A stretch of 64,000 bases of DNA, from contig NZ_CP016464.1 of NCBI RefSeq assembly GCF_001713455.1, positions 2,528,001-2,592,000 of the forward strand. The letters run 5' to 3'. Shown one piece after another: positions 12,183 to 28,887 of this stretch (the first letter of the stretch is position 1; every line of letters starts with the position of its first letter). The position numbers and the translations under genes are program-made. Below the pieces are notes generated by a model. The model worked only from the letters and a program-made list of their open reading frames with translations, was not told the origin of the DNA and ran no database searches. The DNA is from Bosea sp. RAC05 (GTDB taxonomy: Bacteria; Pseudomonadota; Alphaproteobacteria; Rhizobiales; Beijerinckiaceae).

Positions 12183-13226
12183 TCACCGCCAGTTCACGGG
12201 GCCGCCGCGGCGCGGGCCGGGCTTGACCCCGCCATTGGCCTTCAAGCCGCGCAGGATCTTCTCGGGCGTGATCGGTAGCTCGTCGACGCGCACGCCGACG
12301 GCATTGTAGACGGCGTTGGCAATCGCCGGCAGGACCGGATTGGCGCACATCTCGCCGGGCCCCTTGCCGCCATAGGGCCCGTCCGGCGCCGGGCGCTCCA
12401 GCACCGTGACATGGTAGGGCGCGATCTCGCCCGGCCCCGGCATCAGGTATTCGTTGAAGTCGCGCGGGCCATGGGCGGTGTCGGGATAATAGGGCTCGGG
12501 CGTCTCGTAGAGCGCATGGCTCATGCCCATCCAGGCGCCGCCGACCAGCTGCTGCTCGACCATGCGCGGATTGATCACCCGGCCGAGCTCATAGGCGCTG
12601 GTCATCCTGAGCACCTCGACCTCGCCGGTCTCGTCGTCGACAGTGACGTCCGCCACCAGGCAGGCATGGGCGAAAGCGGTGTTGGGGTTCATCTCGCCGG
12701 TTTCGGCATCGACGGCCGAGAGCGGGATCAGAAAGATGCCGCGCCCGGCGATGGTCTTGCCCTGCTTGAACTGCGCCGCCTGGGCGGTCGCCTTGACCGT
12801 GATCGAGCGCGAGGGCGCGCCCCGGACATGGATGTTGCCGCGCCCGTCGGTGACGAGGTCGCCGGCATCGACCTCGAGCTCCTCGGCCGCAGCCTCCAGC
12901 AGAACGCCGCGCGCCTCGCGCGCCGCGACGATGATGGCGTTGCCCATGCGGTGCGTGCCGCGCGAGGCAAACGAGCCCATGTCATGGGGACCGGTGTCGC
13001 TATCGGCGGTGTCGACATAGACGTCCTCGACGGGCACGCCGAGCGTTTCCGCCGCGATCTGCCGCGAGACCTGCTTCATGCCCTGGCCGAGATCGATCGC
13101 CGAGAGCGCGACGGTGAACTTGCCGTCCGGATTCGAGTGGATCAGCGCCTGGCTCGGATCCCCGCCGAGATTCATCCCGATCGGGTAGTTCACCGACGCC
13201 ATGCCGCGACCTTCGTGACGGGCCAT
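12183..13226 (-). CDS. Molybdenum hydroxylase Mo-binding subunit, C-terminal part as separate protein
   Basis: A 347-residue protein matching the second half of xanthine-dehydrogenase-family large subunits. It has the molybdopterin-contact segment SAIDLGQGMK, the GSFASRGTHRMGNA segment and the C-terminal catalytic-glutamate motif GEMCANP (Glu near 292). The ATG at 13226 comes one base after the stop of the N-terminal-part gene (TGAGATG), so translation should be coupled. A longer start at 13271 would overlap that gene by 44 bases and adds a non-homologous leader. The protein must assemble with the product of 13228-15009 to make one active site. Confidence 0.87.
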   Translation of the reverse strand: MARHEGRGMASVNYPIGMNLGGDPSQALIHSNPDGKFTVALSAIDLGQGMKQVSRQIAAETLGVPVEDVYVDTADSDTGPHDMGSFASRGTHRMGNAIIVAAREARGVLLEAAAEELEVDAGDLVTDGRGNIHVRGAPSRSITVKATAQAAQFKQGKTIAGRGIFLIPLSAVDAETGEMNPNTAFAHACLVADVTVDDETGEVEVLRMTSAYELGRVINPRMVEQQLVGGAWMGMSHALYETPEPYYPDTAHGPRDFNEYLMPGPGEIAPYHVTVLERPAPDGPYGGKGPGEMCANPVLPAIANAVYNAVGVRVDELPITPEKILRGLKANGGVKPGPRRGGPVNWR

Positions 13227-13227
13227 C

Positions 13228-15009
13228 TCAGCGCCTCCTGCCGAAGACGGATGAGAAGCGCACCGCGCCATGCTGGGTCTGGGCCGGCGCGGCCGGAGCG
13301 GGCGCAGGCGAAGGCGGCGTCGGGGGCGGCTGATAGGGTGGCGGCTGCTGGCCAGATACCGGCTGGTAGGGAGAGGGGGCCTGCGGCGGCGGATAGGCCG
13401 GCTGCGCTGCGTAGGACGGTGGCACGGCCGTCGCCGGACGCGCCGGCTCGTAGCGCGGCACCTGCGTCGGCGCGGCGCGACCGTCGCGCGCGCCCTCCAT
13501 CACCGGCTGCTTGCTCAAGGCGATGCGGGAGGTGCCTGCCGGCAGGGTTTGCGTCGGGCCTGAGGTGCGGCTGTCGGGCCGGCCGATCTGGCCGCGTGCA
13601 TCGAGCACGGTGGCGGGGATCTGGGCGCGCTCGCCGGCGCCGCCGCCGGTCAGGGACGACTGGCGCTGCGCCTGCTCGGAGATGGGCCAGTTCGCCTTCC
13701 CGGCCGCGACCTGGACACATTCGATCAGCGCCGTGTTCGAGGCCTTGCGCCGATGCGGCTTCATGTCCCCGTCGCGATAGGCGTTGAGGATCCGGAACTC
13801 CATCGGGTCCATGCCGGCGGCTTCGGCGAGCCGGTCCATCTGGACCTCCAGCGCGAAATCGACCGCCGTGATGCCGAAGCCGCGCATGGCGGTGGACGGG
13901 CAGCGGTTGGTGTAGGCGACATGGACGTCGGAGGCGACGTTGGGAATCCAGTACGGTCCCGGCAGATGCGCGGTGCATTTGATCGCGGCATAGCTGGAGA
14001 GCCGCGTATAGGCGCCTGCATCGAAATAGCTGCGGATGGAGCGGGCCACGATGCGCCCGTCGCGCATCAGCCCGTCCTTGATGTAGATGCGCTCGGCCCC
14101 GCGCGGCGAGCCGTAGAGCATCTCCTCCTCGCGATCGAGCACGAAGCGGACCGGGCGCCCCGTCACCATCGCGCCCAGCACGGCCAGAGGTTCGGTCAGC
14201 GAGTCGACCTTGCCGCCGAAGCCACCGCCGACCGTGCCGCCGATGAAATGCAGGCGGTTCGACTCGACCGCGACGATCTTCGCGGTGGTGCCGAGCGCGA
14301 AGAACAGACCCTGCGCGCAGGAGTGCACCACGAAGCGGCCGTTCTGCTCGGGCGCCGCGATCGAGCCGTTGGTCTCCGTCGGCGCATGCTCGATCGGCGA
14401 CATCTGGTAGCGATGCTCCAGCACCATGTCGGCACCGGCAAAGGCGCGTTCGACATCGCCGAAGCGCAGCTTCTGGTGGTCGAAGCGCTCGTGATATTCG
14501 AAGTAATTGGCGGGATAGGTCTCGTTGACGACGGGCGCGCCGGGCTTCAGTGCCTCCTCGACATCGAAAACGGCGGGCATCGGCTCATAGTCGATGCGGA
14601 CGAGTTTCTTCGCGGCCAGCGCCTGCGCCTCGCTCTCGGCGATGATCGCGACGACCGGCTCGCCGACATAGTGCACCTTGTCGACCGCCAGCGAAGGCTC
14701 GTCGTCCTTGCCGAAGCCGATCAGGCTCAGCAGCGTGTTCTTGTTCACCGGCACGTCGGCGGCGCGCAGCACGCGCTTGACGCCCGGCGCGCGCGCCGCG
14801 GCCGAGACGTCGATCGAGCGGATGCGGGCGCTGGCGTGGGGGCTGCGCACCACCTTGAGATGCAGCAGGCCGTCGAAGCCATGATCGTCGAAATAGCGCG
14901 TCAGCCCGGTGACATGGCCGGGCATGTCCTGACGCTGGATGCCCTTGCCGACGACGTTGAGATTGTCGTCGCGCTCATCGGCAAAGAGGTCCTTGCGCAT
15001 TTCCAGCAT
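13228..15009 (-). CDS. Molybdenum hydroxylase Mo-binding subunit, N-terminal part with proline-rich tail
   Basis: A 593-residue protein whose residues 1 to about 450 match the first half of xanthine-dehydrogenase-family large subunits. It has KGIQRQDMPGHVTG, the GGTVGGGFGGK motif at 257-267 that contacts the Mo centre, and AMRGFG near 374. Homology stops near residue 450. A low-complexity tail follows, very rich in Pro, Ala, Gln and Tyr (PPYQPPP type), ending in FGRRR. The second half of the enzyme is coded by the next gene, one base downstream. Subunit order in the operon is SRPBCC pair, FAD, 2Fe-2S, Mo-N, Mo-C. Substrate is unknown; the active-site region is neither CO-dehydrogenase-like nor clearly of another known type. 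Confidence 0.87.
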   Translation of the reverse strand: MLEMRKDLFADERDDNLNVVGKGIQRQDMPGHVTGLTRYFDDHGFDGLLHLKVVRSPHASARIRSIDVSAAARAPGVKRVLRAADVPVNKNTLLSLIGFGKDDEPSLAVDKVHYVGEPVVAIIAESEAQALAAKKLVRIDYEPMPAVFDVEEALKPGAPVVNETYPANYFEYHERFDHQKLRFGDVERAFAGADMVLEHRYQMSPIEHAPTETNGSIAAPEQNGRFVVHSCAQGLFFALGTTAKIVAVESNRLHFIGGTVGGGFGGKVDSLTEPLAVLGAMVTGRPVRFVLDREEEMLYGSPRGAERIYIKDGLMRDGRIVARSIRSYFDAGAYTRLSSYAAIKCTAHLPGPYWIPNVASDVHVAYTNRCPSTAMRGFGITAVDFALEVQMDRLAEAAGMDPMEFRILNAYRDGDMKPHRRKASNTALIECVQVAAGKANWPISEQAQRQSSLTGGGAGERAQIPATVLDARGQIGRPDSRTSGPTQTLPAGTSRIALSKQPVMEGARDGRAAPTQVPRYEPARPATAVPPSYAAQPAYPPPQAPSPYQPVSGQQPPPYQPPPTPPSPAPAPAAPAQTQHGAVRFSSVFGRRR

Positions 15010-15020
15010 GTCGGACTCCC

Positions 15021-15503
15021 TCAGGCGCGGCGAAGGCCGGGCGAACCGGCTGCGGCGAGGATGGCGGCGACGATCGGTTCATAGCCGGTGCAGCGGCAGA
15101 TGTTGCCGCTGATGGCTTCGATGACCTCGTCGCGGGTGGGGGTGGGGTTCCGGTCGAGCAGGGCTCGCGCCGCCGTCAGCATGCCCGGCGTGCAGAACCC
15201 GCATTGCGCGGCGAAATGCTCCATGAACTGCACCTGCAGCGGGTGCAGATCGGGGCCATCAGCCATCCCCGACGCCGTCTCGACCTGCCGGCCCTCGCAG
15301 GCGACGGACAGCGTCAGGCAGGAGAGATGCGGCTCGCCGTCGATCAGCACAGTGCAGACGCCGCAGGCTCCCTGGCCGCAGCCATATTTCGGGGCGAAAT
15401 CGCCCAGGCTCCGGCGCAGCGTGTTGAGCAGCGTCTCGGGCGCATCGACGAAGGCGGCGCGGTCGGTGCCGTTGAGGCGGAACTGGACGGGGATCTTGGC
15501 CAT
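15021..15503 (-). CDS. Molybdenum hydroxylase 2Fe-2S subunit
   Basis: A 160-residue small subunit of the xanthine dehydrogenase/CoxS type. The plant-type cluster uses Cys42, 47, 50 and 62 (CGQGACGVC...SC); the second cluster uses Cys101, 104, 136 and 138 (CGFC...CRC). It passes electrons between the Mo centre and FAD. ATG 15503 was chosen because upstream in-frame residues lie inside the FAD-subunit gene and are unlike the family. The stop is 12 bases before the Mo-N gene. Confidence 0.95.
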   Translation of the reverse strand: MAKIPVQFRLNGTDRAAFVDAPETLLNTLRRSLGDFAPKYGCGQGACGVCTVLIDGEPHLSCLTLSVACEGRQVETASGMADGPDLHPLQVQFMEHFAAQCGFCTPGMLTAARALLDRNPTPTRDEVIEAISGNICRCTGYEPIVAAILAAAGSPGLRRA

Positions 15504-15513
15504 CGCGCGCTCC

Positions 15514-16335
15514 TCAGCGGGGCTCGCCGGCGAGCAGCCGGCCGAGATGGACGGGCAGCACCTCGCGGCGATACCACTCGCTGGCGATGGCGTCGGTCGC
15601 GGGACGGCAGCCTTCGAGCGCGGCCTGTTTGGCGGCGGCGATGGCCGCGGCATCGAGTGCCTTGCCCTCCAGCGCCCGCTCGACGCCTCGCGCGCGGATC
15701 GGTGTCGGCGCCATCGCGCCATAGGCCACCCGCGTCTGGCTCACCCGCCCGCCCGCCAGTGGCAGATGCGCGGCGATCGAGAGCACCGAAATCCCCTTGG
15801 GCTTCACCCGGCTGATCTTGCGGAAGTGGAAGTCGCCGGGGCTGGCCGGACGCGGGATCTGGATCGTGGCCACCAACGCCGTTCCCATCCTCTCCCGGGC
15901 GGACAGGAATTCCTCCAGCGGCGTCGCGCGCCCGCTGCCGAAACCCGACTGCACCACGACCTGGGCGTCGAGGGCGAGCAGTGCGACGGCGAAGTCGCCA
16001 TAGGGGGCGCTCGCGAAGAGGTTTCCGCCAACGCTGGCCATATTGCGCACGGCCGGGCCGCCGATGGCGCGGGCCGGCGCGTGGAGGAAGGCGAGTTCAC
16101 GCGTCGCCAAGATCTGCCCCATCGTGACACCCCCGCCCAGTTCGATCCGGCCGCCGCCAGCATCGATCCGCCGGAAGGCCGGGTCGGTGACGCGCAGCAG
16201 CGTGCCTTCCGTCAGCTTTCCCTCGTTGACATCGCGCATCACCAGCGTGCCGCCGCCGATCAGCACCGCCTGCCGGTCTCCGGACAGGATGCCGGCGGCC
16301 TCAGACAGGGTTGCGCAGCTTCTCACAGCGAGCAT
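15514..16335 (-). CDS. Molybdenum hydroxylase FAD-binding subunit
   Basis: A 273-residue medium subunit of the CoxM type. FAD-contact segments are VLIGGGTL and the motif ASVGGNLF with a following S-A-P-YGD, and the CO-dehydrogenase flavoprotein C-terminal domain follows. The ATG at 16335 is one base after the stop of the second SRPBCC gene; longer frames run into that gene. It would accept electrons from the 2Fe-2S subunit and pass them to an external acceptor. Confidence 0.92.
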   Translation of the reverse strand: MLAVRSCATLSEAAGILSGDRQAVLIGGGTLVMRDVNEGKLTEGTLLRVTDPAFRRIDAGGGRIELGGGVTMGQILATRELAFLHAPARAIGGPAVRNMASVGGNLFASAPYGDFAVALLALDAQVVVQSGFGSGRATPLEEFLSARERMGTALVATIQIPRPASPGDFHFRKISRVKPKGISVLSIAAHLPLAGGRVSQTRVAYGAMAPTPIRARGVERALEGKALDAAAIAAAKQAALEGCRPATDAIASEWYRREVLPVHLGRLLAGEPR

Positions 16336-16336
16336 G

Positions 16337-16789
16337 TCAGACCGCCTCCCGTGCGAGTTCGGGCAGGCGGCGCACCGCCTCGATGCCGTTGGTGTAGACC
16401 TCGTCGCCGACGATGCGGGCGAGTTCGGCCTCGCGGCCGCGCGGCGTGGTGAACCGGCTCTCCCAGTGCCAGAAGGCGCGGTTGCCATCGGTCACCGGCA
16501 GCAGCCGGACATGGGCGACGTAGTTGAAGAGCGGGATCGGCGTGTCGAGCAGGCAGTAGCTGAAGGTCATTTCGAGGTCCGAGAGCGTGAGGAGCTGCTC
16601 GCGCAATTCGCTGCCGTCCTGCAGCCAGAACCGGCGCACGCAGCCGATCCTGTCGGACGGGTGGCCGCGCTCGATTTCGCTACGGGCGACGATCGGGTGC
16701 CAGCGGTCATGGCCGTTGAAGTCGCGCAGCACCGACCAGAGCAGGTCGACCGGCGCGTCGATGATCGTGCTGCGGACGACGTGAGGCAT
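16337..16789 (-). CDS. SRPBCC-family protein (second of a tandem pair)
   Basis: A 150-residue START/Bet-v1-like protein. The start reads MPHVVRSTIIDAPVDLLW, and DFNGHDRWHPIV is the family's first helix-strand region. It resembles its upstream neighbour throughout (VGCxRxFxLxxGxxLREQLLxLSD), so the pair arose by duplication. SRPBCC proteins occur in cox-type operons (CoxG), where they are linked to membrane recruitment of the enzyme; others bind hydrophobic ligands. The gap to the FAD-subunit gene is one base. Confidence 0.85.
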   Translation of the reverse strand: MPHVVRSTIIDAPVDLLWSVLRDFNGHDRWHPIVARSEIERGHPSDRIGCVRRFWLQDGSELREQLLTLSDLEMTFSYCLLDTPIPLFNYVAHVRLLPVTDGNRAFWHWESRFTTPRGREAELARIVGDEVYTNGIEAVRRLPELAREAV

Positions 16790-17242: not shown

Positions 17243-20155
17243 TCAGGAGGTCTTGCCGGGGCCGGCTTCGGGGGCAGGGCCCTCGCCGCCGGTCGTAGGC
17301 TCGCTCTTGGCATCGCCGCCGCCCTTCGGCCTGGCCGGCTGCGCATCCTTGGCGACGCGCTGCATGTCGGACGCTTCGCGCATCAGACCGCCCATCTTGG
17401 CGAGGTTGCCGCCCTCGATGCCGATCTCCTTCAGCACCTGGTCGATCATGGGCGCCTGGACGCGGTAGCGCAGTGCCGACTCGATGACCTCGTCGGTGGG
17501 CGAGCGCGCCGCACCGCCGGCCCCGCCCGAGCCGCCGCCACCGGCGAGTCCGTCGACATGGAGGATGCGGATGCCCTCGATCTTCTCCATCGGCTTGACG
17601 CTCTCGCGCACGATGCCCTCGATCTTGTCGAGCAGGCGGCGCCGGAACAGCCCGTAGCGGGCGCCGTCGCTGAGCACGTTTTCGGCCTCGTAGAGCAGCT
17701 TCTGGGCCTCGGCCTCGACGGCGCGGCGGACCTTGTCGGCGGCGGCGGCGATGTTGGATTCCTCCGCCGCCTTCTCGGCGAGCAGGACCTCGACGGTCTT
17801 GCGCCGTTTCGCACCTTCGCTCTCGCGGATCGTCTTGACCTGTTCCTCGGCCTCGACCGCCTTGGCGCGGGCGCTCTCGGCATTGGCCTGGGCGGCGGAT
17901 TCCTCAAGCGACTTGGTGTAGAGCGCGATCGCCTTGTCCATGGCGGCCGCCTCGACGTCGCGCTCCCTCGCGATCTCCAGCTTGCGCAGCTCGCGCTGGC
18001 GCCCGACCCGGGCCTCGTCGAGCCCGCGATCCGACGAGATGCGGGCGCGCTCGACCTCCTCGTTCGAGGCGATCTGCGCCTCCTGCAGCGCCTGAGTCCG
18101 GGCGATCTCGAGCTGCTCCAGCGCGCGCCGGCGCTCGATCCGGGCGGCCTCCAGCGCCTGTTCGCGGACGATGTCGACGGATTCGACCTGCTGCTTGGCG
18201 GCGATCTCGGCCTGGCGCAGCGCGCTGTCGGCGTCGGTGCGCTCGACCCTCTTGGCGGCGAGCACGATGGCGCGGTCTTCCTCCGCCACCTCGACCGCCT
18301 TCTTCTGGGCGATCTGCAGCATCTCGCGGGACTTCGCCGCGTCGATGCGCTCTTCGTCCAGACCGAGTTCCGTGGCGATGCGCCGGCGCTCGACGGTGTC
18401 GCGGCGCTTCAGCTCGGCGGTGTCGAGATCGGCGTTGCGGCGGATCTCCAGCTCCTTCGTGGCGAGTTCCGCCGCGATCCGTTCGGCAGCGACGACCTTC
18501 TCCTGGGCGATGCGCGCGGCTTCCGTCGCCTCGCGCGCGGCGATCTCGGCGGTGTCGATCGCCTGGTTGCGGGCGATCTCGAGATTGCGGACCTCCTCGT
18601 CGCGGCGGATGCGCTCGCTGGCGACGGTCCGCTCCTGGCTGATGCGCGCCTTCTCGACGCTCTCGCGCGCCGCGATCTCGGCCGCCTCGATCGTCTCGGT
18701 CTGCTCGATCTCGAGCAGGCGCTTGCGCTGCTCCAGCGCGATGCGCTCGGCCGTCAGCACGTTTTCCTGGGCGATGCGGGCCTTCTCGACCGCCTCGCGG
18801 GCTGCGATCTCGGCCTCGTCGAGGGCGCGGTTGCGCGCGATGCCGAGTGCGCGGACGCGCTCCTCCTGGCCGATGCGGGCGGTGTCGACCGCTTCGCGCG
18901 CGGCGATGTCCTCCTGGTCGAGCACGCGGGTGCGCTCGATCTCGCGGTTGCGGATCTCCTGCTCGCGGATGATGCGCTCGGCACTGATCGCGGTTTCCTG
19001 CAGGATGCGCGCCTTCTCGGTCGCCTCCCGTGCCGCGATCTCGGCGGCTTCAAGCGTCTGTGCGCGCTCGATTTCCTTCTGGCGGATGTCGCGCTCGGAG
19101 GCGATGCGGGCCGCGCTGATCGCCTGCTCATTGGCGATGCGGGCCTTCTCGATCAGCTCGCGCGAGCTGATCTCGGCCTCCTCGACGGCCTGCGTGCGCG
19201 CGATCTCCTGCTGGCGGATATCGCGCTCGGAGGCGATGCGCGCCTCGCTGATCGCGCGCTCGTTGGAGATGCGCGACTTCTCGATCTCCTCGCGGGAGAG
19301 GATCTGCGCCTGCTCGGCTTCCGTATCGCGGGCCGCGCGCTCGCGGGCGATTTCGGCCCGCTGCACGGCGCGCTTGATCTCGATCTCGCGCTGCTGCTCG
19401 AGCCGCGCTGCCTCGCTGTCGCGCTCGATGTCGAGCGCCTGGCGCTCCGCTTCGAGGTTGCGGGTGCGGATGCGGATCATCGAATCCTGCTCGATGTCGT
19501 TGCGCAGCTTCCGCTTGTCCTCGATCTCCTCGATGATCCGCGTCAGGCCGGCGGCGTCGAAGCGGTTGGAAGGGTTGAAATACTGCAGGTCGGTCTGGTC
19601 GAGGTCGGTGAGCGCCACCGATTCCAGCAGCAGGCCGTTCTGGTCGAGCGCCTCGGCCGCGGCCTCCTTGACGCGCTGGACATACATCCCGCGCTGCTCG
19701 TGCATCTCCTCCATCGTCATCTCGGAGGCGACGGTGCGCAGCGCCGAGATGAACTTGCCCGACAGCAGGGCGTGGAGCTGGTCGGGCTGGAGCGTGCGGC
19801 GGCCCAGCGTTGCGGCGGCAATCGAGACCGAATCCCGCTCCGGCTTCACCCGGACATAGAACTCTGCGTCGATGTCGACGCGCATCCGGTCGCGGGTGAT
19901 CAGCGCGTCGTTGCTGGCGCGCGTCACGGCGAGCTGCAGCACGTTCATGTTGACGGGCGTGACGTCGTGGATGATCGGCAGCACGAAGGCGCCGCCATTG
20001 ATTACCACCCGTTCGCCGAACAGGCCGGTGCGGACGAAGGACACCTCCTTCGACGAGCGCCGATACAGCCAGTTCACCAGATAGACGACAATGGCGATGA
20101 TGATCACCGCCACGATCAGCCAGAGGATCAGCGATCCGATCAGCTGTCCCGTCAT
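17243..20155 (-). CDS. Giant flotillin/SPFH-domain membrane protein with long repeat coiled coil
   Basis: A 970-residue protein, larger than ordinary flotillins or YqiK (about 430-700). Residues about 5-30 form one strongly hydrophobic helix (LILWLIVAVIIIAIVVYLV). An SPFH/Band-7 domain spans about 35-220 (GLFGERVVINGGAFVLP, then RMRVDIDAEFYVRV). Residues 241-738 are a very long Ala/Glu/Arg/Ile helix built from about eleven 44-residue repeats. A flotillin-type C-terminal region follows, with KTVEVLLAEKAAE and MIDQVLKEIG, and a Gly/Pro-rich tail. It probably oligomerises at the inner membrane as a scaffold. It lies 28 bases after the TIM-barrel gene and 12 bases before the SRPBCC pair, so it is in the hydroxylase operon. 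Its role there is not known. Confidence 0.9.
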   Translation of the reverse strand: MTGQLIGSLILWLIVAVIIIAIVVYLVNWLYRRSSKEVSFVRTGLFGERVVINGGAFVLPIIHDVTPVNMNVLQLAVTRASNDALITRDRMRVDIDAEFYVRVKPERDSVSIAAATLGRRTLQPDQLHALLSGKFISALRTVASEMTMEEMHEQRGMYVQRVKEAAAEALDQNGLLLESVALTDLDQTDLQYFNPSNRFDAAGLTRIIEEIEDKRKLRNDIEQDSMIRIRTRNLEAERQALDIERDSEAARLEQQREIEIKRAVQRAEIARERAARDTEAEQAQILSREEIEKSRISNERAISEARIASERDIRQQEIARTQAVEEAEISSRELIEKARIANEQAISAARIASERDIRQKEIERAQTLEAAEIAAREATEKARILQETAISAERIIREQEIRNREIERTRVLDQEDIAAREAVDTARIGQEERVRALGIARNRALDEAEIAAREAVEKARIAQENVLTAERIALEQRKRLLEIEQTETIEAAEIAARESVEKARISQERTVASERIRRDEEVRNLEIARNQAIDTAEIAAREATEAARIAQEKVVAAERIAAELATKELEIRRNADLDTAELKRRDTVERRRIATELGLDEERIDAAKSREMLQIAQKKAVEVAEEDRAIVLAAKRVERTDADSALRQAEIAAKQQVESVDIVREQALEAARIERRRALEQLEIARTQALQEAQIASNEEVERARISSDRGLDEARVGRQRELRKLEIARERDVEAAAMDKAIALYTKSLEESAAQANAESARAKAVEAEEQVKTIRESEGAKRRKTVEVLLAEKAAEESNIAAAADKVRRAVEAEAQKLLYEAENVLSDGARYGLFRRRLLDKIEGIVRESVKPMEKIEGIRILHVDGLAGGGGSGGAGGAARSPTDEVIESALRYRVQAPMIDQVLKEIGIEGGNLAKMGGLMREASDMQRVAKDAQPARPKGGGDAKSEPTTGGEGPAPEAGPGKTS
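17942..19435 (-). repeat. Coding repeat array: eleven degenerate 132-base units (44 residues)
   Basis: The SPFH protein's coiled coil is made of units starting IAARE(A/S)xEKARI and ending ExAE. Units begin at residues 241, 285, 329, 373, 417, 450, 494, 538, 582, 651 and 695. All are 44 residues except the fifth, which is 33. A 25-residue spacer lies at 626-650. Both 44 and 33 are multiples of 11, which fits a hendecad (11-residue) coiled coil in which the short unit keeps phase. The DNA units have diverged. Confidence 0.85.
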
Positions 20156-20183: not shown

Positions 20184-21059
20184 TCATTTCGCCTTGCCCG
20201 CCTTGCCGGCGGGCTTTTTGTTCGTGAGATCGCGCCCGATGCGCTTGAAGGCGCGCGTCTGGTCGCGGATCGCGACCTCGACCGGCAGCCGCTCCATCGA
20301 GGAGGCGCCGTAGAAGCCGTGGCAGTGCTTGGTGTGCTTCATGATGAAGTCGGCATCCGCCGGCTCGGCGACCGGGCCGCCATGCACGAGGATGAGCGCG
20401 TCCTTCTTCACCGCGAGGGCAGCGGCAGCCCAGGCGTCGACCAGCGCCGGGCAGTCTGCGAGCTTGAGCGCCGTCTCGGCGCCGATCGCCCCGCCGGTCG
20501 TCAGCCCGAGATGGCAGACGATGATGTCGGCGCCCGCTGTCGCCATGGCGCGCGCATCGGCCTCGCAGAAGACGTAAGGCGTCGTCAGCAGGCCCTTGGC
20601 GTTGGCGAGACGGATCATCTCGACCTCGAGACCGTAGCCCATGCCGGTCTCTTCGAGGTTCTTGCGGAAGACGCCGTCGATCAGCCCGACGGTCGGGAAG
20701 TTCTGCACCCCGGCGAAGCCGATCCGCGCGACCTCGTCGAGGAAGACGTCCATCCGCCGGAACGGGTCGGTGCCGCAGACGCCGGCGATCACGGGGGTGG
20801 TCTTCACCACGGGCAGCACCTCGGCCGCCATCTCCATGACGATGGCATTGGCGTCGCCATAGGGCATCATGCCTGACAGCGAGCCGCGGCCGGCCATGCG
20901 GTACCGGCCGGAATTGTAGATGACGATGAGGTCGATCCCGCCGGCCTCTTCGCATTTGGCCGATAGCCCGGTGCCGGCGCCGCCGCCGACGATCGGCTCG
21001 CCGGCCTTCACCATCGCCCGGAAGCGCTTCAGCAGGGCCGTCTTGTCGAGGGCGGTCAT
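20184..21059 (-). CDS. TIM-barrel protein, phosphoenolpyruvate-hydrolase-like (partner half of Tm-1-like proteins)
   Basis: A 291-residue TIM-barrel protein of the PEP-mutase/hydrolase-like family that commonly sits beside UPF0261 genes. Features are [18 protein letters not shown] at the start, [25 protein letters not shown] and a C-terminal [13 protein letters not shown]. The ATG at 21059 was chosen because upstream codons run into the palindromic repeat. In tomato Tm-1 a UPF0261-like domain is followed by a TIM-barrel domain of this kind; here the UPF0261-like part is at the end of the previous gene. The C-terminus is Lys/Ala-rich. Reaction is unknown. Confidence 0.82.
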
Positions 21060-21094
21060 GGGCGGTCCTCGAAGTCGAAGCCGCCGCCGAACGC

Positions 21095-21183
21095 CGTCAT
21101 TGCGAGCGCAGCGAAGCAATCCAGGAGGAGGTAGGGCGCTGCCGCCCCTGGATTGCTTCGTCGCTGCGCTCCTCGCAATGACG
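21095..21183. repeat. REP-like inverted repeat, copy 2 (opposite orientation)
   Basis: An 89-base palindrome between the TIM-barrel gene and the LivF-fusion gene. Its left arm is identical to the reverse complement of the right arm of the copy at 11195-11284, and its right arm matches that copy's left arm except for one base. The two copies are therefore the same element in inverted orientation about 10 kb apart. The central 30 bases between the arms differ. Confidence 0.88.
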
Positions 21184-21204
21184 GTGAGGCGATCATCGTC
21201 GAGT

Positions 21205-23454
21205 TCATGCCCTGCCTCCACTTGCCCGCTCGCGCCGGCGCCCGGCGTGCAGGGCCCTGAACTCCCGCACCAAAGCGGCGGCGAAGGCCGGGTCGTTGAT
21301 GTGATGCGGGCAGCGGATCAGCTGCCGCGTCGGCGTCTGCCGCACGGTCTGCTCCAGCGCCTGGAACAGGGCGGCGTCGGCGGCGGGATCGTGGAAAGGC
21401 TGGCCGGGCGCATCGAGCGCCGACACGCCGCGCTCGGGCAGGAGGAAGCGCACCGGCCCCTCCATCAGGTTCAGCCGCTCGCCGATCCAGCGCCCCATCC
21501 GGGCGTTCTCCTCGGCGGTCGTGCGCATCAGCGTGATCTGCGGATTGTGCGGATAGAGATTGCGACCCCGGTACCGCTCCGGAACCGTCTCGGGGGCGAA
21601 GAAATTGACCATGTCGAGCGCGCCGACCGAGCCGACATAGGGAATGCGCGTGCGGATGATCGCCCCGAAGCGGTCTTCCGTCGCCGGCAGGAAGCCGCCC
21701 ATCATCATGTCGCAGATTTCGGTGGTGGAGACGTCGATGACGGCCCCGACCAGCCCGGACTCGACCAGCTTCTCCAGCGCCCGCCCGCCCGTGCCGGTGG
21801 CGTGGAAGACGAGCGGCTCCCAGTCGGCCTCCAGCAGCCGCGAGACCTGCTGCACGCAGGGCGTGGTGACACCAAACATGGTGAGGCCGACGAGCGGCTT
21901 CTCGGGCTCGGCGCGCCGCGTCGTCGCCGGTCTGGTCAATTCGGCCAGCCGCGCCTTGGCCATGGCGGCCATCGCCCGCGCCCCGTTTCCGAGCACGAGC
22001 CGCGAGACCCGGTTGATCCCCTGCACATCGGTGACGGCATGCATCATGGTGATGTCGGCGGCGCCGACATAAGCCGCGACATCGCCCGACGCCATGGTCG
22101 AGATCATCAGCTTCGGCAGCCCGATCGGCAGGGCCTGCATGGCGGGCGTCACCATGGCGGTCGCCCCCGAGCCGCCGGCCGAGATCACGCCGAGAACGCC
22201 CTGCTGGCGCGGGAGCCAGGCCTTGAACGCCTCCGTCATCGCCGCCACGGCCGCGCCGCGGTCACCCGACGCGATGCCGGCCGAGCCGCGCGGATGGGCG
22301 AGCGCGATCTCCTGCGGGCTGACGTCGCCGCCGGCACTGCGGCCCGAGGTCGAGATATCGACGAGCCGTGCCCGTACCCCGTCCGCCTGGACGAGATCGC
22401 GGATGAAGCGCAGTTCCTCGCCCTTGGTGTCGAGCGTGCCGACGACGACGACATGCGGCTCGCCGCTGCCCGAGGGCGCATGGCGCCGGCCGTCCGCGAC
22501 CCGGGTGCCGTCGCGCGTCGCCAGCGTCGGGCGCGAGATCGTCCGTGCCTGCGCCTCGATCCGCGCCGCCGGGACGGGCTGCGACCAGCGCGTCGGGATC
22601 ACCGGATTGGCGTTGTAGACCCGCATCGGGCCGCTCGGCGGGGCAGGGGCGCGGGCCGCCCCGCTCTCGGACGACTCCGCTGTGTCGGGCGCGCTGTCGG
22701 TTTCGTCGTGGCTGTGCCGGCCGACGCCGAGCAGGCGCTGCTGCAGGTCGCGATCGCCGGCCAGAGTCGCGGAGGCGATGATGCGGTTGATCCGGCCATT
22801 GACCATGATGGCGACCGGGTCCGACATCTCGGTGGCGACGCCGATGTTCTGCTCGATGACGAGGATCGCGACGTCGCCCTGCTCGGCGAGGCGCACCAGC
22901 ATCTCCTCGACATGGGCGACGATGACGGGCGCGAGCCCTTCCGTCGGCTCGTCCATGATCAGCAGGCGGGGATTCATCAGCAGGGCGCGGCTGATCGCCA
23001 GCATCTGCTGCTCGCCGCCCGAGAGCTGGGCGCCGCCATTGTTGCGGCGCTCCGCCAGCCGCGGGAAGGCCTCGTAGATCCGCTCCGGCGTCCAGGCCCC
23101 GCGCTTGGAGCGCTGCATCAGCCGCAGATGCTCGTCGACCGTGAGCGAGCGCCAGAGCCGGCGCCCCTGCGGCACATAGCCGATGCCGAGCCGCGCGATC
23201 TCGGCCGGGCTGCGCCCCGCGATCTCCTCGCCGAAGAAGCGGATCGAGCCCGAGCTGACCGGCACCAGCCCCATGATCGCCTTGCACATGGTCGTCTTGC
23301 CCATGCCGTTGCGGCCGACCACCGAGAGCACGCCGCTCTGGAGCGTGAGGTCGACGCCCTGAAGCGCATGGGAGCGCCCATAGAAGACGTTGAGGCCGGC
23401 GATCTGCAGGATCGGCACGCCGACGCCGGGCGGGGCCTTGAGGCGCTCAGCCAT
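21205..23454 (-). CDS. Fusion: LivF-type ABC ATPase plus Tm-1-like/UPF0261 domain
   Basis: A 749-residue protein. Residues 1-245 are a branched-chain amino-acid-type ATPase (LivF): Walker [10 protein letters not shown] near 47-55, signature LSGGEQQ at 144-150, Walker [14 protein letters not shown], then IEQN. Residues about 246-331 are a polar, Pro/Ser/Ala-rich linker with a His pair. Residues 333-735 are a complete Tm-1-like ATP-binding (UPF0261) domain, beginning [13 protein letters not shown] and including [11 protein letters not shown] and MFGVTTPCV. It overlaps LivG by 8 bases upstream. The TIM-barrel partner gene follows after a 145-base gap with a palindromic repeat. The ATPase half should pair with LivG to energise LivHM; why the other domain is attached is unknown. 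Confidence 0.9.
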
Positions 23455-24250
23455 GCCCGCCTCCGCCGTGACCGCCGCCGAGATAGAGTTCCTGGACTTC
23501 CGGGTCGCTCTCGATCTCCTGCGGCGCGCCTTCCTTGAAGATGCGGCCGTTGTGCATCATCGTCACGCTCTCGACGACGCGCAGCGCCACGTCCATGTCG
23601 TGCTCGATGATGATGTAGCCGATGTGGCTCGGCAGCGAGGTCAGGATGTGGACGAGGTCGCGCCGCTCGGTCGGCGACAGCCCCGCCGCCGGCTCGTCGA
23701 ACAGGATGAAGCGCGGCGCGCCCGACAAGGCGAGCGCGATCTCGAGCTGGCGCTGCTGGCCATAGGCGAGCTCGCCGACCAGCCTGTCCTTGACGGCCGA
23801 GAGATGCACCGCCTCGACCAGCGTCTCGGCTGCATGGACCAGCGCGTCGTCCCGGCGCGGGCGCAGCAGCGAGAACCGGTTCCGCGAGACGCCCCGGCAG
23901 GCGAGATAGACGTTGTCGAGCACCGAAAGCCCGGTGAACAGCGACGAGATCTGGTAGGTCCGGCGCAGGCCCCGCCTGATCCGCTCCTGCGGCGGAAAGG
24001 CGGTGACGTCCTCGCCGAAGAAGCGGATCACGCCCGAACTCGGCGCGAAATCGCCGGTGACGCAGTTGAACAGCGTCGTCTTTCCCGCCCCGTTCGAGCC
24101 CAGCACGGCGCGCCGCTCGCCGGGCTTCACCGAGAGCGTGATGTCGGTCAGCGCCGCCAGCGCGCCAAATAGCCGCGAGACCCCGCGCAGTTCGAGCGCA
24201 TTGGCGGAGCCCGCCGCCGTCAGCCGCTCGCGGGAGACGACCGCGCTCAT
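23447..24250 (-). CDS. livG: Branched-chain amino-acid-type ABC transporter ATP-binding protein LivG
   Basis: A 267-residue ATPase of the LivG group. Walker A is LGSNGAGKTT, the Q-loop region is RRTYQISSLF, the signature is atypical (LAYGQQRQLE instead of LSGGQQ, as is common in LivG-like proteins), Walker B is FILFDEPAAGLSP and the switch is IIEHDMD. The ATG at 24250 overlaps the LivM stop by 4 bases and the gene overlaps the LivF fusion by 8. A Gly/His-rich tail ([10 protein letters not shown]) at the C-terminus is unusual. Confidence 0.93.
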   Translation of the reverse strand: MSAVVSRERLTAAGSANALELRGVSRLFGALAALTDITLSVKPGERRAVLGSNGAGKTTLFNCVTGDFAPSSGVIRFFGEDVTAFPPQERIRRGLRRTYQISSLFTGLSVLDNVYLACRGVSRNRFSLLRPRRDDALVHAAETLVEAVHLSAVKDRLVGELAYGQQRQLEIALALSGAPRFILFDEPAAGLSPTERRDLVHILTSLPSHIGYIIIEHDMDVALRVVESVTMMHNGRIFKEGAPQEIESDPEVQELYLGGGHGGGGHG

Positions 24251-25332
24251 GGCGCGCCTCCGCCGGATCCCATCTGGCTGTCGCGGGCGTCGCGGCCACG
24301 GCGATAGCGCTCGCGCAGCCGCTGGAAGATGCCGATCAGCCCGTCGGGCGAGAACAGCACGATCACGAGGAAGCCGAGCCCGATCAGCAGCTGGTAGCGC
24401 CGCCCGTCGAGGCCGACACCCTCGAGCACGTCGAGCGCGAAGGTGCGCAGCAGCACATAGACGAGCGCGCCGATGAAGGGGCCGATCGGGCGGCTCAGGC
24501 CGCCGACCACCGCGATGATCAGCATGTCGACGACGGGCCCGACGCCGGCCGTGCCGGGCGAGATCTGGCGCTGGTACCAGACCAGCAGCACCCCGGCGCA
24601 AGCCGCGATCAGCGAGGCGAAGGTATAGGCGGCGATGCGGTGTGCGACGACGTCGAAGCCGAGCGCCGCCATGCGGCGGGGGTTGTCGCGCGTGCCCTGC
24701 AAGGCGAGCCCGAAGGGCGCCCGCGAGACATAGATCACCACGCCATAGGCCAGCGCCGCACAGGCCAGCGTCAGGTAGTAGAAGGGCAGGCTCTGGCCCC
24801 AGTCGATGCCGAGGAAGACCGGCGGCAGGATGCCGTTGAAGCCACTGAAGCCGTTGAAGATCGTGTAGTTCTGCAGCGTCAGGTAATAGAAGGCCGAGGC
24901 GATCGCGAGCGTGATCATGATCGTGTAGATGCCCTCGGTGCGCACCGAGAGCGCCCCGCTCAGCGTGCCGAACAGCGTCGCGACCAGGATCGCGACCGGC
25001 ACCGCCGTCCACCACGGCCAGTTCAGGCTGATCTGGGTGATGGCGCTGCCGCCGAGGATCGCCACGAGATAGCCGGCAAAGCCCGCCACCGTCATCTGGA
25101 TCAGGCTGACGATGCCGCCATAGCCGGCCAGGAACATCAGGCTGAGCGCAACCATGCCCAGGATCATCGCATAGGCGATGATCTGGACGAGCCAGAACGG
25201 GCTGGCGATGGCGGGCATGGCGAGCAACAGGGCGGCCACGATCCAGAAGGCGGTGCCCCGCCGGGCAACCCAGTCCCCGAAGCCCTCCTGGGGACGGGCG
25301 CGCTGCTCCAGATCGAGGTCGGCGATGGCCAT
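24247..25332 (-). CDS. livM: Branched-chain amino-acid-type ABC transporter permease LivM
   Basis: A 361-residue inner-membrane permease with about ten hydrophobic segments. It has the LivM motif LAGYGGIVSLIQMTVAG near the start, GRRYQLLIGLGFLVIVLFSPDGLIG near the end and the ATPase-docking loop around GTRDNPRRMAALGF. The ATG at 25332 starts 2 bases after the LivH stop; longer frames lie inside livH. It forms the membrane pore with LivH. Confidence 0.92.
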   Translation of the reverse strand: MAIADLDLEQRARPQEGFGDWVARRGTAFWIVAALLLAMPAIASPFWLVQIIAYAMILGMVALSLMFLAGYGGIVSLIQMTVAGFAGYLVAILGGSAITQISLNWPWWTAVPVAILVATLFGTLSGALSVRTEGIYTIMITLAIASAFYYLTLQNYTIFNGFSGFNGILPPVFLGIDWGQSLPFYYLTLACAALAYGVVIYVSRAPFGLALQGTRDNPRRMAALGFDVVAHRIAAYTFASLIAACAGVLLVWYQRQISPGTAGVGPVVDMLIIAVVGGLSRPIGPFIGALVYVLLRTFALDVLEGVGLDGRRYQLLIGLGFLVIVLFSPDGLIGIFQRLRERYRRGRDARDSQMGSGGGAP

Positions 25333-25334
25333 CG

Positions 25335-26345
25335 TCAGCGCCTCGCCGCCAGGCCTTCGGGCCTGATCGCCAGCACCGCGACCATGATCAGGAAGGTCAG
25401 CATCACCGCATAGGTCGGCATGTAGACCGAGCCGAACTGCTCGGCGAGGCCGACGATCAGCGCCCCTACCGCCGCGCCCGGGATCGAGCCCATGCCGCCG
25501 ACGATGACGACGACGAGCGAGGACAGCAGGATGCGCGTATCCTCGCCCGGCTGCAGCGACTGGAAGGTGCCGCCGACGACGCCGGCGAGGCCCGCGAGCC
25601 CGGCCCCGAAAGCGAAGACCATGACGAAGACGAGCTGCACGCGCACGCCGGTCGCCGACAGCATGTCGCGATCGTCCACCCCGGCGCGCACGAGCATGCC
25701 GACCCGCGTGCGGTTGAGCGCCAGCCACATCAGCACGCCGACGACGATCGCCCCGATCAGGATGGCGATGCGCACCAGCGGGTAGGTCATCATCACCGCC
25801 TCGCCATTGCTGCGCAGCGCGACCGCCAAGGGCAGCGTCACCGGCCCCGAGAGCCAGTCCGGCGCCGTGACCTGGAAGGTGTCGCCGCCATAGCTCCACA
25901 ACAGCAGGTCGGCGAAGATGATCGAGAGCCCGATGGTGACGAGCGTCTGGCGGAGGTCCTGGCCCTCCATCCAGCGAAAGAGCAGCACCTGCATGAGGAT
26001 GCCAGCCAGCGCCACGACGAGGAAGGCGACCAGCAGCGCCATCAGCCAGGAGCCGGTCCATTCGCCGACGCTGTAGCCGACATAGCCGCCGAACAGATAC
26101 AGCGAGCCGTGCGCGAGGTTGACGTTGCGCATCAGCCCGAAGATCAGCGTGAACCCGCTGGCGACCAGGAAATACAGCGCCCCCAGCGTGATGCCGTTGA
26201 ACAGCGCGCTCAGGAAGACGCGCTTGCGCCCGAACATCGCCTCCATCCCCGGCGTCCAGATCGAAAAGACGAGCCAGGCCAGGACGGCGAGCGCCAGCAG
26301 GATGATCAGCGACCAGATCGGGCGGCGGGCGACGAAGTCAGACAT
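25335..26345 (-). CDS. livH: Branched-chain amino-acid-type ABC transporter permease LivH
   Basis: A 336-residue permease. LivH-type landmarks are GITLGALYFLVASGFTLIFGLM and NLAHGSLYLFGGY near residues 45-90, and the loop RVGMLVRAGVDDRDMLSATGV that faces the ATPases. An N-terminal helix of about 20 residues precedes the core. The ATG at 26345 overlaps the AraC regulator's stop by 8 bases, so importer and regulator are translated from one message. Confidence 0.92.
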   Translation of the reverse strand: MSDFVARRPIWSLIILLALAVLAWLVFSIWTPGMEAMFGRKRVFLSALFNGITLGALYFLVASGFTLIFGLMRNVNLAHGSLYLFGGYVGYSVGEWTGSWLMALLVAFLVVALAGILMQVLLFRWMEGQDLRQTLVTIGLSIIFADLLLWSYGGDTFQVTAPDWLSGPVTLPLAVALRSNGEAVMMTYPLVRIAILIGAIVVGVLMWLALNRTRVGMLVRAGVDDRDMLSATGVRVQLVFVMVFAFGAGLAGLAGVVGGTFQSLQPGEDTRILLSSLVVVIVGGMGSIPGAAVGALIVGLAEQFGSVYMPTYAVMLTFLIMVAVLAIRPEGLAARR

Positions 26346-27210
26346 GGCAGGCCCGCAGCGATGGGCCGGACAGGAGCGGCGGCTGGCCGACACGGCGCAG
26401 GACCCGGCGATAATCGCGCGGCGCCATGCCCATATGGGCGGTGAAGAAGCGGGTGAAGACGCTCTGGCAGGAGAAGCCGAGCGTCTGGCTGATCTGCGTC
26501 ACCGGATCGCCCGAGAGCACGAGGCGATCGAGCGCGGCGTCGAGCCGGACGGTGTTGGCGAAGACGGTCGGGGTGACGCCGACCTGCTCGCGGAAGAGCT
26601 TGAAGAAATGCGCCCGCGACAGCCCGGCCTCCCGGGCGACACGGGCGAGCGCGCCCTCATGGGCGGGATGGGCCTCGATCAGGCGCTGCGCCCGTGCCAC
26701 CCGCCGATCGAGCACGCTTTCCGGCGCGACATGCAGCAGGGCGGAGGCGAGGTCCTGGCCGATCGGCTCGCTCGAGGCCTGGGCCAGGGCCATCAGCACG
26801 GGCGCCAAATTGAGGTCGCGATGCGCCGACAGCAGCATTTCGACCGCCTCGTCACGCCAGGAGGCGAGTTCGCGGGTGATCACCAGCTCGGACGCCGGGA
26901 AGGCCAGCGCACCGGGCGGCGTCATGGTCTGGGCCGCGAGCCATTCGGGCTTGAGATAGACGACGAGGAAGAGGCCGAGCGCGCCCGCCCGTTCCGGCTG
27001 GAAGTTGTGCGGCTCCCACGGGTTGATCGCCACCCCCATGAAGGGGTCGACCAGCGTGGCGCGGCCATTCACGGTCACGATCCCGCGCGACCCTTCGAGG
27101 AAGAAGATCAGATGGGCCTCGCGGTGGGCGTGCAGCACCAGCGGGCGGTCGAGATCGTAGATCGCGACGCGGCCGAAGGGGCCGTGGCAGACCGCAACTG
27201 CGCGACTCAT
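26338..27210 (-). CDS. AraC-family transcriptional regulator
   Basis: A 290-residue regulator with an N-terminal cupin-like sensing domain (LHAHREAHLIFFLEG near the start, NPWEPHNFQ) and a C-terminal double helix-turn-helix (LARVAREAGLSRAHFFKLFREQVGVTP, then ISQTLGFSCQSVFTRFF). The start at 27210 gives MSRAVAVCHG; an in-frame ATG at 27261 adds 17 residues and cannot be excluded. The gene sits between the binding protein and livH and overlaps livH by 8 bases. It probably controls its own importer operon in response to the imported compound. Confidence 0.9.
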   Translation of the reverse strand: MSRAVAVCHGPFGRVAIYDLDRPLVLHAHREAHLIFFLEGSRGIVTVNGRATLVDPFMGVAINPWEPHNFQPERAGALGLFLVVYLKPEWLAAQTMTPPGALAFPASELVITRELASWRDEAVEMLLSAHRDLNLAPVLMALAQASSEPIGQDLASALLHVAPESVLDRRVARAQRLIEAHPAHEGALARVAREAGLSRAHFFKLFREQVGVTPTVFANTVRLDAALDRLVLSGDPVTQISQTLGFSCQSVFTRFFTAHMGMAPRDYRRVLRRVGQPPLLSGPSLRACHV

Positions 27211-27357
27211 GATGCCTCGCGAAAGTAGGTCCGACGCAGGAAGCTGGGCCTCGTCAGGCAAGCCACCGGCTTGGCACCGCGAGATCCGCTCGCAGGCGCC
27301 GGGAGTCGGGACGTGACGGAAGCGGAGGGGGCACGCAGGGCGCGCGTCCCCTCCATC

Positions 27358-27373
27358 GGGCGCTCGTGCGCCC
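27358..27373 (-). terminator. Stem-loop at the 3' end of the binding-protein gene
   Basis: An inverted repeat with 6-bp arms (GGGCGC / GCGCCC) and a four-base loop starts at the last base of the binding-protein stop codon, read on the minus strand. There is no T-run. It may stabilise the binding-protein message or partly end transcription before the AraC gene. The rest of the 162-base gap shows no other signal. Confidence 0.35.
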
Positions 27374-28620
27374 TATTTCTTGCATTCCGGATTGGTCCGG
27401 GACGGCAGGCCGATCGCCTTGAACGCCTCCAGCGGGAGGCCCAGCGTCTGCGTCACGTCCGGCACGGCGCGCACGAACTTGTTGGTCAGATCGCCATTGG
27501 GCAGCTCAGCGACCTCGGTGATGAAGGTCGTGGCGATCGCCTGCCGGTTGTCGTCGAGCCGGATCTTGCCGTTGGGCGCATTCAATTCGACCTTGGCGAG
27601 TTCGGCGCGCAGCTTGGCCCCGCCATCCGAGAGGTCGCCCTTGACCTTGTCCATCGCGATCGAGAGCGCCATCACGGCGTTGTAGTAGTTGGTCGCGAAG
27701 AGCGAGGGGCTGGCGAAGCGCTTGTCGGCCGGGAAGGCGTCCTGATAGGTCTTCACCCAGGTCTTCCAGCGCGGATCGTCCCAGGCGTCCGCGACGCCGC
27801 CCGACGAGGGCGTGCCGACGAGCAGGCGCTTGGCGGCGCCCTTCGACGACAGCACGGTCTGGTCGACCATGATCGAGCCGCCGATGAACTTCGCCTTGCC
27901 GCCGGTCTGGCTGTACTGGTTCAGGAAGTTGACCGCGTCGCCGCCGCCGAGACCGAGAAAGACGGCATCGACATTGTCGGGGATGTTGGCGATCACCGAA
28001 CCGAAGTCCTTGGTGCCGAGCGGAACCCACTGGCGCTGGACGATCTCGCCGCCTGCGCGGCAATAGCCGATCGCGAAGCCGAAGACCTGCGTGTAGGGGA
28101 AGGAGTAGTCCTCGGCGATCACCGAGATCTTCTTGTAGCCCTTGTCCTTCAGCACGTATTCGCCGAGACCGGCCATCCACATCGCGCCGTCGCTGTTGAA
28201 GCGGAAGAAGTTCGGCGAGGGATTGACGAAGGTCGTCTCGAGCGCGCCCGACGAGCCGTTGACCATGACGAGGTTCGGCACCGTCTTGCTGTAGTCGCGC
28301 ATGGCGATGCCTTCGGAGCCGGAGAGCGGCCCGATGATCAGCTGCACCTTGTCCTGCTCGACCAGCTTGCGGGCCGCGCGCAGCGCGGAATCCGGGCTGG
28401 CGTCGGTGGCCGTGATGATGAACTCGAATTCGCGCCCGGCCATCTTGTTGCCGAGTTCCTTGGCCGCGATCTGGACGCCGCGGACGCCGTCTTCACCGCC
28501 GGACGTCAGAGGGCCCGACAGCGTCGCCATCACACCGATCTTGAGTTTTTCCTGGGCATGCGCGGCCGGTGCAGCCGCGACGAAACAGGCCGCGATGGCG
28601 GCCGCAAGCGTCTTGCGCAT
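27373..28620 (-). CDS. ABC transporter substrate-binding protein, LivJ/LivK-like (family 4)
   Basis: A 415-residue periplasmic binding protein. The N-terminal Sec signal peptide is MRKTLAAAIAACFVAAAPAAHAQ with cleavage expected after AHA. The mature part starts EKLKIGVMATLSGPLTSGGED, which is the typical ligand-pocket segment, and continues with a type-I fold ending PECKK. The ATG at 28620 was chosen because it begins the signal peptide; upstream frame residues are Arg-rich and non-homologous. It should feed LivHMG and the LivF fusion. Family members bind branched amino acids, amides, urea or aromatic acids, so the ligand is open. Confidence 0.93.
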   Translation of the reverse strand: MRKTLAAAIAACFVAAAPAAHAQEKLKIGVMATLSGPLTSGGEDGVRGVQIAAKELGNKMAGREFEFIITATDASPDSALRAARKLVEQDKVQLIIGPLSGSEGIAMRDYSKTVPNLVMVNGSSGALETTFVNPSPNFFRFNSDGAMWMAGLGEYVLKDKGYKKISVIAEDYSFPYTQVFGFAIGYCRAGGEIVQRQWVPLGTKDFGSVIANIPDNVDAVFLGLGGGDAVNFLNQYSQTGGKAKFIGGSIMVDQTVLSSKGAAKRLLVGTPSSGGVADAWDDPRWKTWVKTYQDAFPADKRFASPSLFATNYYNAVMALSIAMDKVKGDLSDGGAKLRAELAKVELNAPNGKIRLDDNRQAIATTFITEVAELPNGDLTNKFVRAVPDVTQTLGLPLEAFKAIGLPSRTNPECKK

Positions 28621-28652
28621 CGTAGTCCTCCCTGCGTGCTGGCCGCGCCGAA

Positions 28653-28689
28653 GGTTCTGACGGCGAAGCCGGTGGCGGCTTTTGGAACC
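28653..28689 (-). promoter_or_regulatory. Possible structured 5' leader of the LivJ-like gene
   Basis: In the 267-base gap upstream of the binding-protein gene a two-part hairpin can form: outer arms GGTTC / GAACC and inner arms AAGCCG / CGGCTT. It lies about 33 bases from the start codon. The gap probably holds a promoter, since it is the largest gap within the 40-kb run, but no convincing -35/-10 pair is visible. Confidence 0.25.
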
Positions 28690-28887
28690 GCTCTGAGGAC
28701 ACGGTAACATAGCGCCTGACGCTGCCAAGACCGCGGATATTGCGCTGGGTCTGCTTTTTGGGCGGCCGTCGAAACGGGATGCGCGCGGCTTGGAACGCAT
28801 CCCGACCTGACCTGGCGGCGGCCCCGCGCCGCCGCTGTCGGCCGCCGCGGGAACCGTTCTGGCGGCGGGCGTGGTGTCGCGCGACCG

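Follow-up and report, generated by a model that had tools for sequence, protein, structure and literature searches.

The window analyzed here, a 64,000-nucleotide stretch of the Bosea sp. RAC05 genome (contig NZ_CP016464.1, positions 2,528,001 to 2,592,000), carries on its reverse strand an operon for an importer of the HAAT (LivFGHMK-type) family together with catabolic genes (Table 1). This single operon encodes a Peripla_BP_6 protein along with a pair of BPD_transp_2 permeases and a pair of ABC ATPases, and one of the ATPases, LivF, is joined in one reading frame to a UPF0261/Tm-1-like domain. The coordinates and domains of this fusion had been given correctly in the initial annotation, with all Pfam matches lying above their cut-offs. 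The same annotation had assigned the following gene to a TIM-barrel partner, which was borne out by a PEP_hydrolase match covering positions 2–267 of the 267 in the PF09370 profile; this protein is referred to below as TBST. To that description we add the flotillin gene of the operon, its pair of SRPBCC genes, and its catabolic genes. The operon probably ends at the gene for the SMP-30::isochorismatase fusion. The amidase and isochorismatase genes upstream (28888–31187) were set aside as parts of the system because, among the flanks of the best 80 of 407 fused loci, an amidase match was found in 1/80 and an isochorismatase match in 0/80.

Table 1. Genes and features of the operon in the window; positions are counted from the first nucleotide of the window.
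Feature	Position	Strand	Basis and remarks
SMP-30::isochorismatase fusion	8315-6702	-	Pfam
Metallo-beta-lactamase-fold protein	9175-8327	-	Pfam
Amidohydro_2 protein	10072-9188	-	Pfam
CoxE-like VWA protein	11181-10069	-	Pfam
MoxR-like AAA ATPase	12178-11294	-	Pfam; name MoxR from Yoonia record
Mo-hydroxylase genes overall	12183..16338	-	Pfam
Mo-hydroxylase large subunit, split in two genes	15009-13228 and 13271-12183	-	Pfam
Mo-hydroxylase 2Fe-2S subunit	about 15503-15021	-	Pfam
Mo-hydroxylase FAD subunit	16338 to 15514	-	Pfam
SRPBCC (Polyketide_cyc2) gene 2	16789-16337	-	PF10604 67.6 bits
SRPBCC (Polyketide_cyc2) gene 1	17230-16793	-	PF10604 98.6 bits
Flotillin (Band_7 + Flot), 970 aa, 44-residue-period repeats	17243..20155	-	PF01145 65.5 bits, PF15975 117.8 bits
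TBST/PEP_hydrolase TIM-barrel partner, 291 aa	20184..21059	-	PF09370 428.8 bits; PDB 2p10 E=6.6e-116
LivF-type ABC ATPase::UPF0261/Tm-1-like fusion, 749 aa	21205..23454	-	Pfam; single frame in relatives; model
Tether DNA (residues 246-332), with invariant R289 W290 in PTRWS motif	22459..22719	-	37/37 sequences; mostly pLDDT under 50
LivG ATPase	23447..24250	-	PF00005, PF12399; 8 bp overlap with fusion; start chosen by eye
LivM permease	24247..25332	-	PF02653; start chosen by eye
LivH permease	25335..26345	-	PF02653; start chosen by eye
AraC-type regulator	26338..27261	-	PF12833, PF00165
Periplasmic substrate-binding protein (SBP)	27373..28800	-	PF13458 198.5 bits

The genome contains one UPF0261 match, one TBST match, and two Flot matches. 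Both the Band_7/SPFH and the Flot domains were matched in the flotillin of the operon, whose gene includes arrays of a 132-bp (44-residue) tandem repeat. Several minor features of the operon were also recorded. The gap between the fusion and the TBST gene (21204–21060) contains inverted repeats (21094–21184); the 16-bp core of this repeat is matched exactly at 20 sites genome-wide, compared with 0 for the reversed control, and the gap element is therefore a dispersed repeat. The large subunit of the Mo-hydroxylase is split into a MoCoBD_1 part with a proline-rich tail and an overlapping MoCoBD_2 part, an arrangement reminiscent of nicotinate dehydrogenase. In the last gene, an SMP-30/gluconolactonase domain is joined to an isochorismatase-type hydrolase in one protein.

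The fused protein consists of an ATPase (residues about 14–243), a tether (about 246–332), and the domains UPF0261_N (333–502, 196.7 bits) and UPF0261_C (519–735, 300.8 bits; cut-off 27 for both). The ABC_tran match (94.2 bits) spans residues 31–171. The assignment of the C-terminal part to UPF0261 was further supported by the NF002673 model (595.6 against a cut-off of 520). The Walker A, Q-loop, signature, and Walker B residues of the fused LivF were kept in 36–37 of the 37 sequences compared, so that the catalytic ATPase motifs of a HAAT importer are present. The fused LivF is like E. coli LivF and UrtE in its ATPase fold, its motifs, and its partners LivG, LivM, LivH, and the SBP; unlike them, it scored below both NCBIfam equivalog cut-offs (143.9 of 441 bits for LivF and 221.7 of 285.8 bits for UrtE), and the substrate should therefore not be taken as leucine or urea. 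In a structure model of the fusion, two units are folded and the tether is predicted to be disordered; the pTM of 0.52 leaves the relative placement of the folded parts open.

The fusion was then followed in other genomes. The best 80 of 407 loci (from named genomes of Bosea, Bradyrhizobium, Methylobacterium MAGs, and others) were taken as the close set, and counts on them therefore describe close relatives. The initial annotation had raised the possibility of a stop or frameshift at the linker; none was seen, as 79 of these best 80 of 407 loci have one frame of 734–778 aa, and the remaining locus (L057) is cut by a contig end. In the sampled genomes of the family, class, and phylum, UPF0261 was present in 39/199, 50/385, and 38/398, respectively, and frames of at least 600 aa, which were taken as fused, were found in 22/39, 19/50, and 14/38 of these. 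When each genome was counted once, 50 of 119 UPF0261-bearing genomes had a long fused frame; this status rests on frame length, with 32 of the 50 checked in frame, and two of the 119 match only below the family cut-off. Among 56 short loci obtained from the three genome searches, the genes were fused in one open frame in 32 and separate in 24. An assembly artefact (a frameshift or a missed stop) was rejected on the basis of the 79/80 single frames and the 32 in-frame short loci. Thus, the fusion is confirmed to be no assembly accident, and many soil bacteria carry the fused importer ATPase. A tblastn search also located it on Shinella, Yoonia, and Variovorax plasmids. The Yoonia and Variovorax records, in which flotillin and SRPBCC genes come next, name the protein “ABC transporter permease,” and the fusion is therefore hidden in these two annotations.

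Comparison of the flanks demonstrated a constant gene company. Flanking genes were counted at 90 fused and 35 separate loci; 11/101 fused and 4/39 separate loci had too little flank and were omitted. In the Pfam survey of neighbor genes, 139 of 173 were submitted; gene calls there came from a simple script based on GC frame, and this script made errors at some of the window's genes as well. At 90/90 fused and 0/35 separate loci, a flotillin gene lay no more than 9 kb away on the same strand, although the fusion arose once (see below), so the flotillin may have joined once and the 90/90 do not represent 90 events. The 90 loci include all 19 fused loci of the diverse set. In the same flank counts, TBST was near 88/90 fused and 28/35 separate loci, and LivG, LivM, LivH, and the SBP accompanied the fusion at 90, 89, 89, and 89 of the 90 fused loci. 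Each cassette had one LivF on that strand, the fused one, which is the sole LivF seen in the operon. Among the close loci (best 80 of 407), the fused LivF was followed by TBST in 80/80, and 54/80 had exactly the order SBP-AraC-LivH-LivM-LivG-LivF::UPF0261-TBST-flotillin-SRPBCC-SRPBCC-FAD-FeS-MoxLn-MoxLc-MoxR-VWA. Most other close loci showed this order with fewer genes seen or with additional Liv matches; one had the SBP on the opposite strand and one had an additional amidase. The conserved order, the flank counts, and the control windows described below led us to reject the idea of chance neighbors.

The constant module consists of the SBP, LivHMG, LivF::UPF0261, TBST, flotillin, and two SRPBCC genes, and the downstream catabolic genes are variable. 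The gene for the Mo-hydroxylase FAD subunit was detected in 6/19 diverse fused loci, and in 6/6 of the diverse loci having the Mo-hydroxylase genes these were followed by MoxR, VWA, and amidohydrolase genes. Locus L138 has instead a fusion of SRPBCC with alcohol dehydrogenase, FAH, an alpha/beta hydrolase, and an amidohydrolase, and L137 has the same SRPBCC::alcohol-dehydrogenase fusion with an amidohydrolase. In these two cassettes, which are without the AraC/Mo-hydroxylase part, it is the second SRPBCC that is joined to a zinc-type alcohol dehydrogenase (L138:7024-8493 and L137:7658-9109). As exceptions, loci L154 and L155 carry the fusion with no TBST close to it, each genome having a single TBST that adjoins a separate UPF0261 gene; in L139, TBST lies upstream of the fusion, and neither LivH nor LivM was detected. 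The script-called flotillin frames ranged from 571 to 1476 aa across the diverse fused loci. Extra copies were observed in L163, in the order UPF0261-TBST-UPF0261, and also in L171, where the fused cassette has near it a second and distant set, TBST-UPF0261-TBST.

The segment between the ATPase and UPF0261 measured 77–117 residues in 36/37 sequences and 210 in one containing unread bases. In the model, pLDDT was under 50 at residues 244–278, 282–285, 287–290, and 304–330, so the tether is predicted to be disordered, and its mean majority-residue fraction was 0.41 vs. 0.78 for LivF and 0.72 and 0.77 for the two UPF0261 domains. Within it, however, R289 and W290 were invariant in 37/37 sequences, as well as in 36/36 rows of the alignment used for folding. 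The linker had been described as a low-complexity one; it is indeed disordered and fast-diverging, but the invariant pair means that it is not merely low-complexity. A conserved Arg-Trp pair within a fast-changing disordered stretch resembles a docking motif, and we infer that it may act as one. A six-frame search for P[TN]RW[STNG] in the window and in loci L022–L101 and L137 upward gave 134 matches, 100 of them within the fusion tethers. The remaining 34 were judged by eye to be chance frames, and for the sequences searched the possibility that the motif is common to other proteins was rejected. Most separate UPF0261 proteins as listed begin near the domain; in a few the listed start lies farther out, and the script’s choice of the farthest start codon may explain this.

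A phylogenetic tree of 81 UPF0261 domains (39 fused), from which 63 of the 80 fused loci of the close set were omitted, required two changes, a gain and then a loss. The latter concerns L189, a separate UPF0261 nested in the fused clade (support 100/99), of which 39/40 rows retained the fusion. The sequences thus indicate that the fusion originated once and was later lost once. In L158, L168 (which is among the loci omitted from the flank counts), and a plasmid of Thermomicrobium roseum, the genes are ordered LivH-LivM-SBP-LivG-LivF-UPF0261-TBST, with LivF and UPF0261 as unfused neighbors. On a quick LivF tree (SH-aLRT only; 69 of the 80 close loci and matches under 500 bases or with stops omitted), the LivFs of these three joined the fused LivFs at 99, and the fused ones were grouped at 93. 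The LivF-UPF0261-TBST operon therefore predates the fusion, because the unfused genes in the same order have the LivFs closest to the fused ones.

These ancestral-type loci bear on an explanation that we consider unlikely, though not negligible, namely that the fusion is an accident of overlapping neighbors, either harmless or fixing a 1:1 ratio, and that UPF0261-TBST is an enzyme of the same pathway with no need of tethering. As called, the LivF and UPF0261 genes of L158 and L168 overlap by 4 and 10 bases, and LivF ends without a tether; one indel could therefore fuse them. The mostly unconserved tether and the loss of the fusion in the L189 lineage agree with such an accident. However, the near-complete retention of the fusion in its clade, the invariant Arg-Trp pair, and the constant presence of flotillin wherever flanks allow argue against it.

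Separate UPF0261 genes were compared with 80 control strand-windows from 40 stretches, which were taken from 20 of the genomes that have separate loci. Within 5.5 kb and on the same strand, TBST was found at 32/39 separate loci vs. 0/80 controls and SRPBCC at 13/39 vs. 0/80. A Liv- or sugar-type permease was near 13/39 separate loci vs. 2/80 controls (Fisher p = 6e-6, uncorrected for relatedness), and five of these 13 loci form one clade; a query-type ATPase was near 11/39 vs. 10/80. The pair therefore does co-occur with importers, both here and in the Liv operons, the opposite of the outcome that the initial annotation had named as refuting its proposal. That proposal, in which the Tm-1-like pair acts as an enzyme on the imported compound while held at the transporter, gains support from the sole LivF of the operon, its intact ATPase motifs, the unfused Liv operons of the same order, and the permease enrichment. 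On the other side, a permease within 5.5 kb was undetected at 26/39 separate loci. The occurrence next to two unrelated importer types suggests that the pair would work on imported compounds and not on Liv transporters as such.

In PMC5028733, UPF0261 and TBST are described as co-evolving, widespread in bacteria, and taken up by plants as the fused protein Tm-1L, and this combination of co-evolution and fusion therefore suggests a joint enzyme. The order of UPF0261 followed by TBST at the window matches that of plant Tm-1L as given in the same paper, as had been noted earlier. The UPF0261 part of the window protein aligns end to end with the Tm-1 structures 3wrw/3wry (E=1.2e-94 for 3wry). The plant protein differs in that UPF0261 and TBST form one polypeptide, whereas the window has them in two genes and joins UPF0261 to an importer ATPase. 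Tomato Tm-1 blocks a plant virus. A defense role of the bacterial proteins by analogy draws on this homology only, and seems hardly credible for genes of an operon that serves import and catabolism and also encodes an AraC regulator, a Mo-hydroxylase, and hydrolases. ATP binding is known for Tm-1, and by analogy with it, together with database names, UPF0261 may use ATP.

Two bacterial operons were used for comparison. The T. roseum plasmid resembles the window in having two permeases, an SBP, two ATPases, a Tm-1-like protein, and a PEP hydrolase; it differs in that LivF and UPF0261 are two genes and no flotillin is present among the annotated neighbors. In Rhizobium sp. CCGE531, UPF0261 and PEP hydrolase also adjoin an ABC importer, but this is annotated as a carbohydrate-type importer with UgpC, and all genes are separate. 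Among the open-licence PMC papers listed by our literature search, we saw none that dealt with the fusion or with the cassette and none that gave a reaction for UPF0261/TBST; passages from PMC2364660, PMC6867892, PMC8508112, PMC8963296, and PMC10995168 offered no mechanism.

The C-terminal domains of MalK and MetN switch their ATPases. UPF0261, which lies at the C-terminus of an ABC ATPase, might likewise be a regulatory domain that responds to a ligand or nucleotide in the cytoplasm by switching LivF. We regard this as improbable, since the tether is long and predicted to be disordered, which differs from the tight coupling of a regulatory domain, the adjacent gene still encodes TBST, the UPF0261 motifs of the fused proteins are the same as those of the separate ones, and the pair occurs near sugar-type importers as separate proteins.

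The gene neighborhood suggests instead that the imported compound is processed right at the gate. Since the fused protein is the sole LivF seen in the operon, the motor should carry UPF0261 if the transporter works. We give about even chances to a HAAT importer whose LivF would carry, on a flexible tether of about 90 residues, the UPF0261 half of a UPF0261-TBST enzyme; judged from the sequences, what the importer bears at its cytoplasmic mouth is most likely the first enzyme of a catabolic route. In such a system, LivG and LivF would drive the LivHM channel, and the UPF0261 domain would recruit the separately encoded TBST barrel. Acting jointly at the cytoplasmic mouth, UPF0261 and TBST would use ATP to perform the first step on the imported compound. 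Flotillin could keep the assembly in a membrane patch, perhaps via the Arg-Trp motif, the SRPBCC proteins might bind or carry an intermediate, and exchangeable oxidoreductases and hydrolases (here the Mo-hydroxylase and lactonase-like proteins) would complete the breakdown.

More tentatively, the cassette may be a portable uptake-and-activation unit, with a tethered first enzyme, a dedicated flotillin patch engaged via the Arg-Trp pair, and interchangeable downstream pathways, a possibility to which we give less than even weight. If true, this unit would represent a membrane-patch metabolon that forms part of an importer in bacteria, and the imported substrate would open the reaction of the Tm-1/UPF0261-TBST family. 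The cassette also offers a natural test of flotillin organizing metabolism around a bacterial transporter. The fusion to an importer subunit ties the UPF0261/TBST family to a transported small molecule; growth or uptake screens on one operon could therefore find the substrate.

The lactonase-like and amidohydrolase genes downstream are only a hint that the substrate is a cyclic ester or amide. One fused cassette (L201) is carried by a plasmid of Variovorax paradoxus VAI-C, a strain known for growth on acyl-homoserine lactones, and the Yoonia cassette includes a gene named as an N-acyl homoserine lactonase family protein; taken together, these are a correlation only. In the T. roseum plasmid (L197), the unfused operon continues with a GntR regulator and a cyclase-family protein, as well as two genes named as PEP/pyruvate-binding and PEP-utilizing enzymes, which may give a hint of the chemistry.
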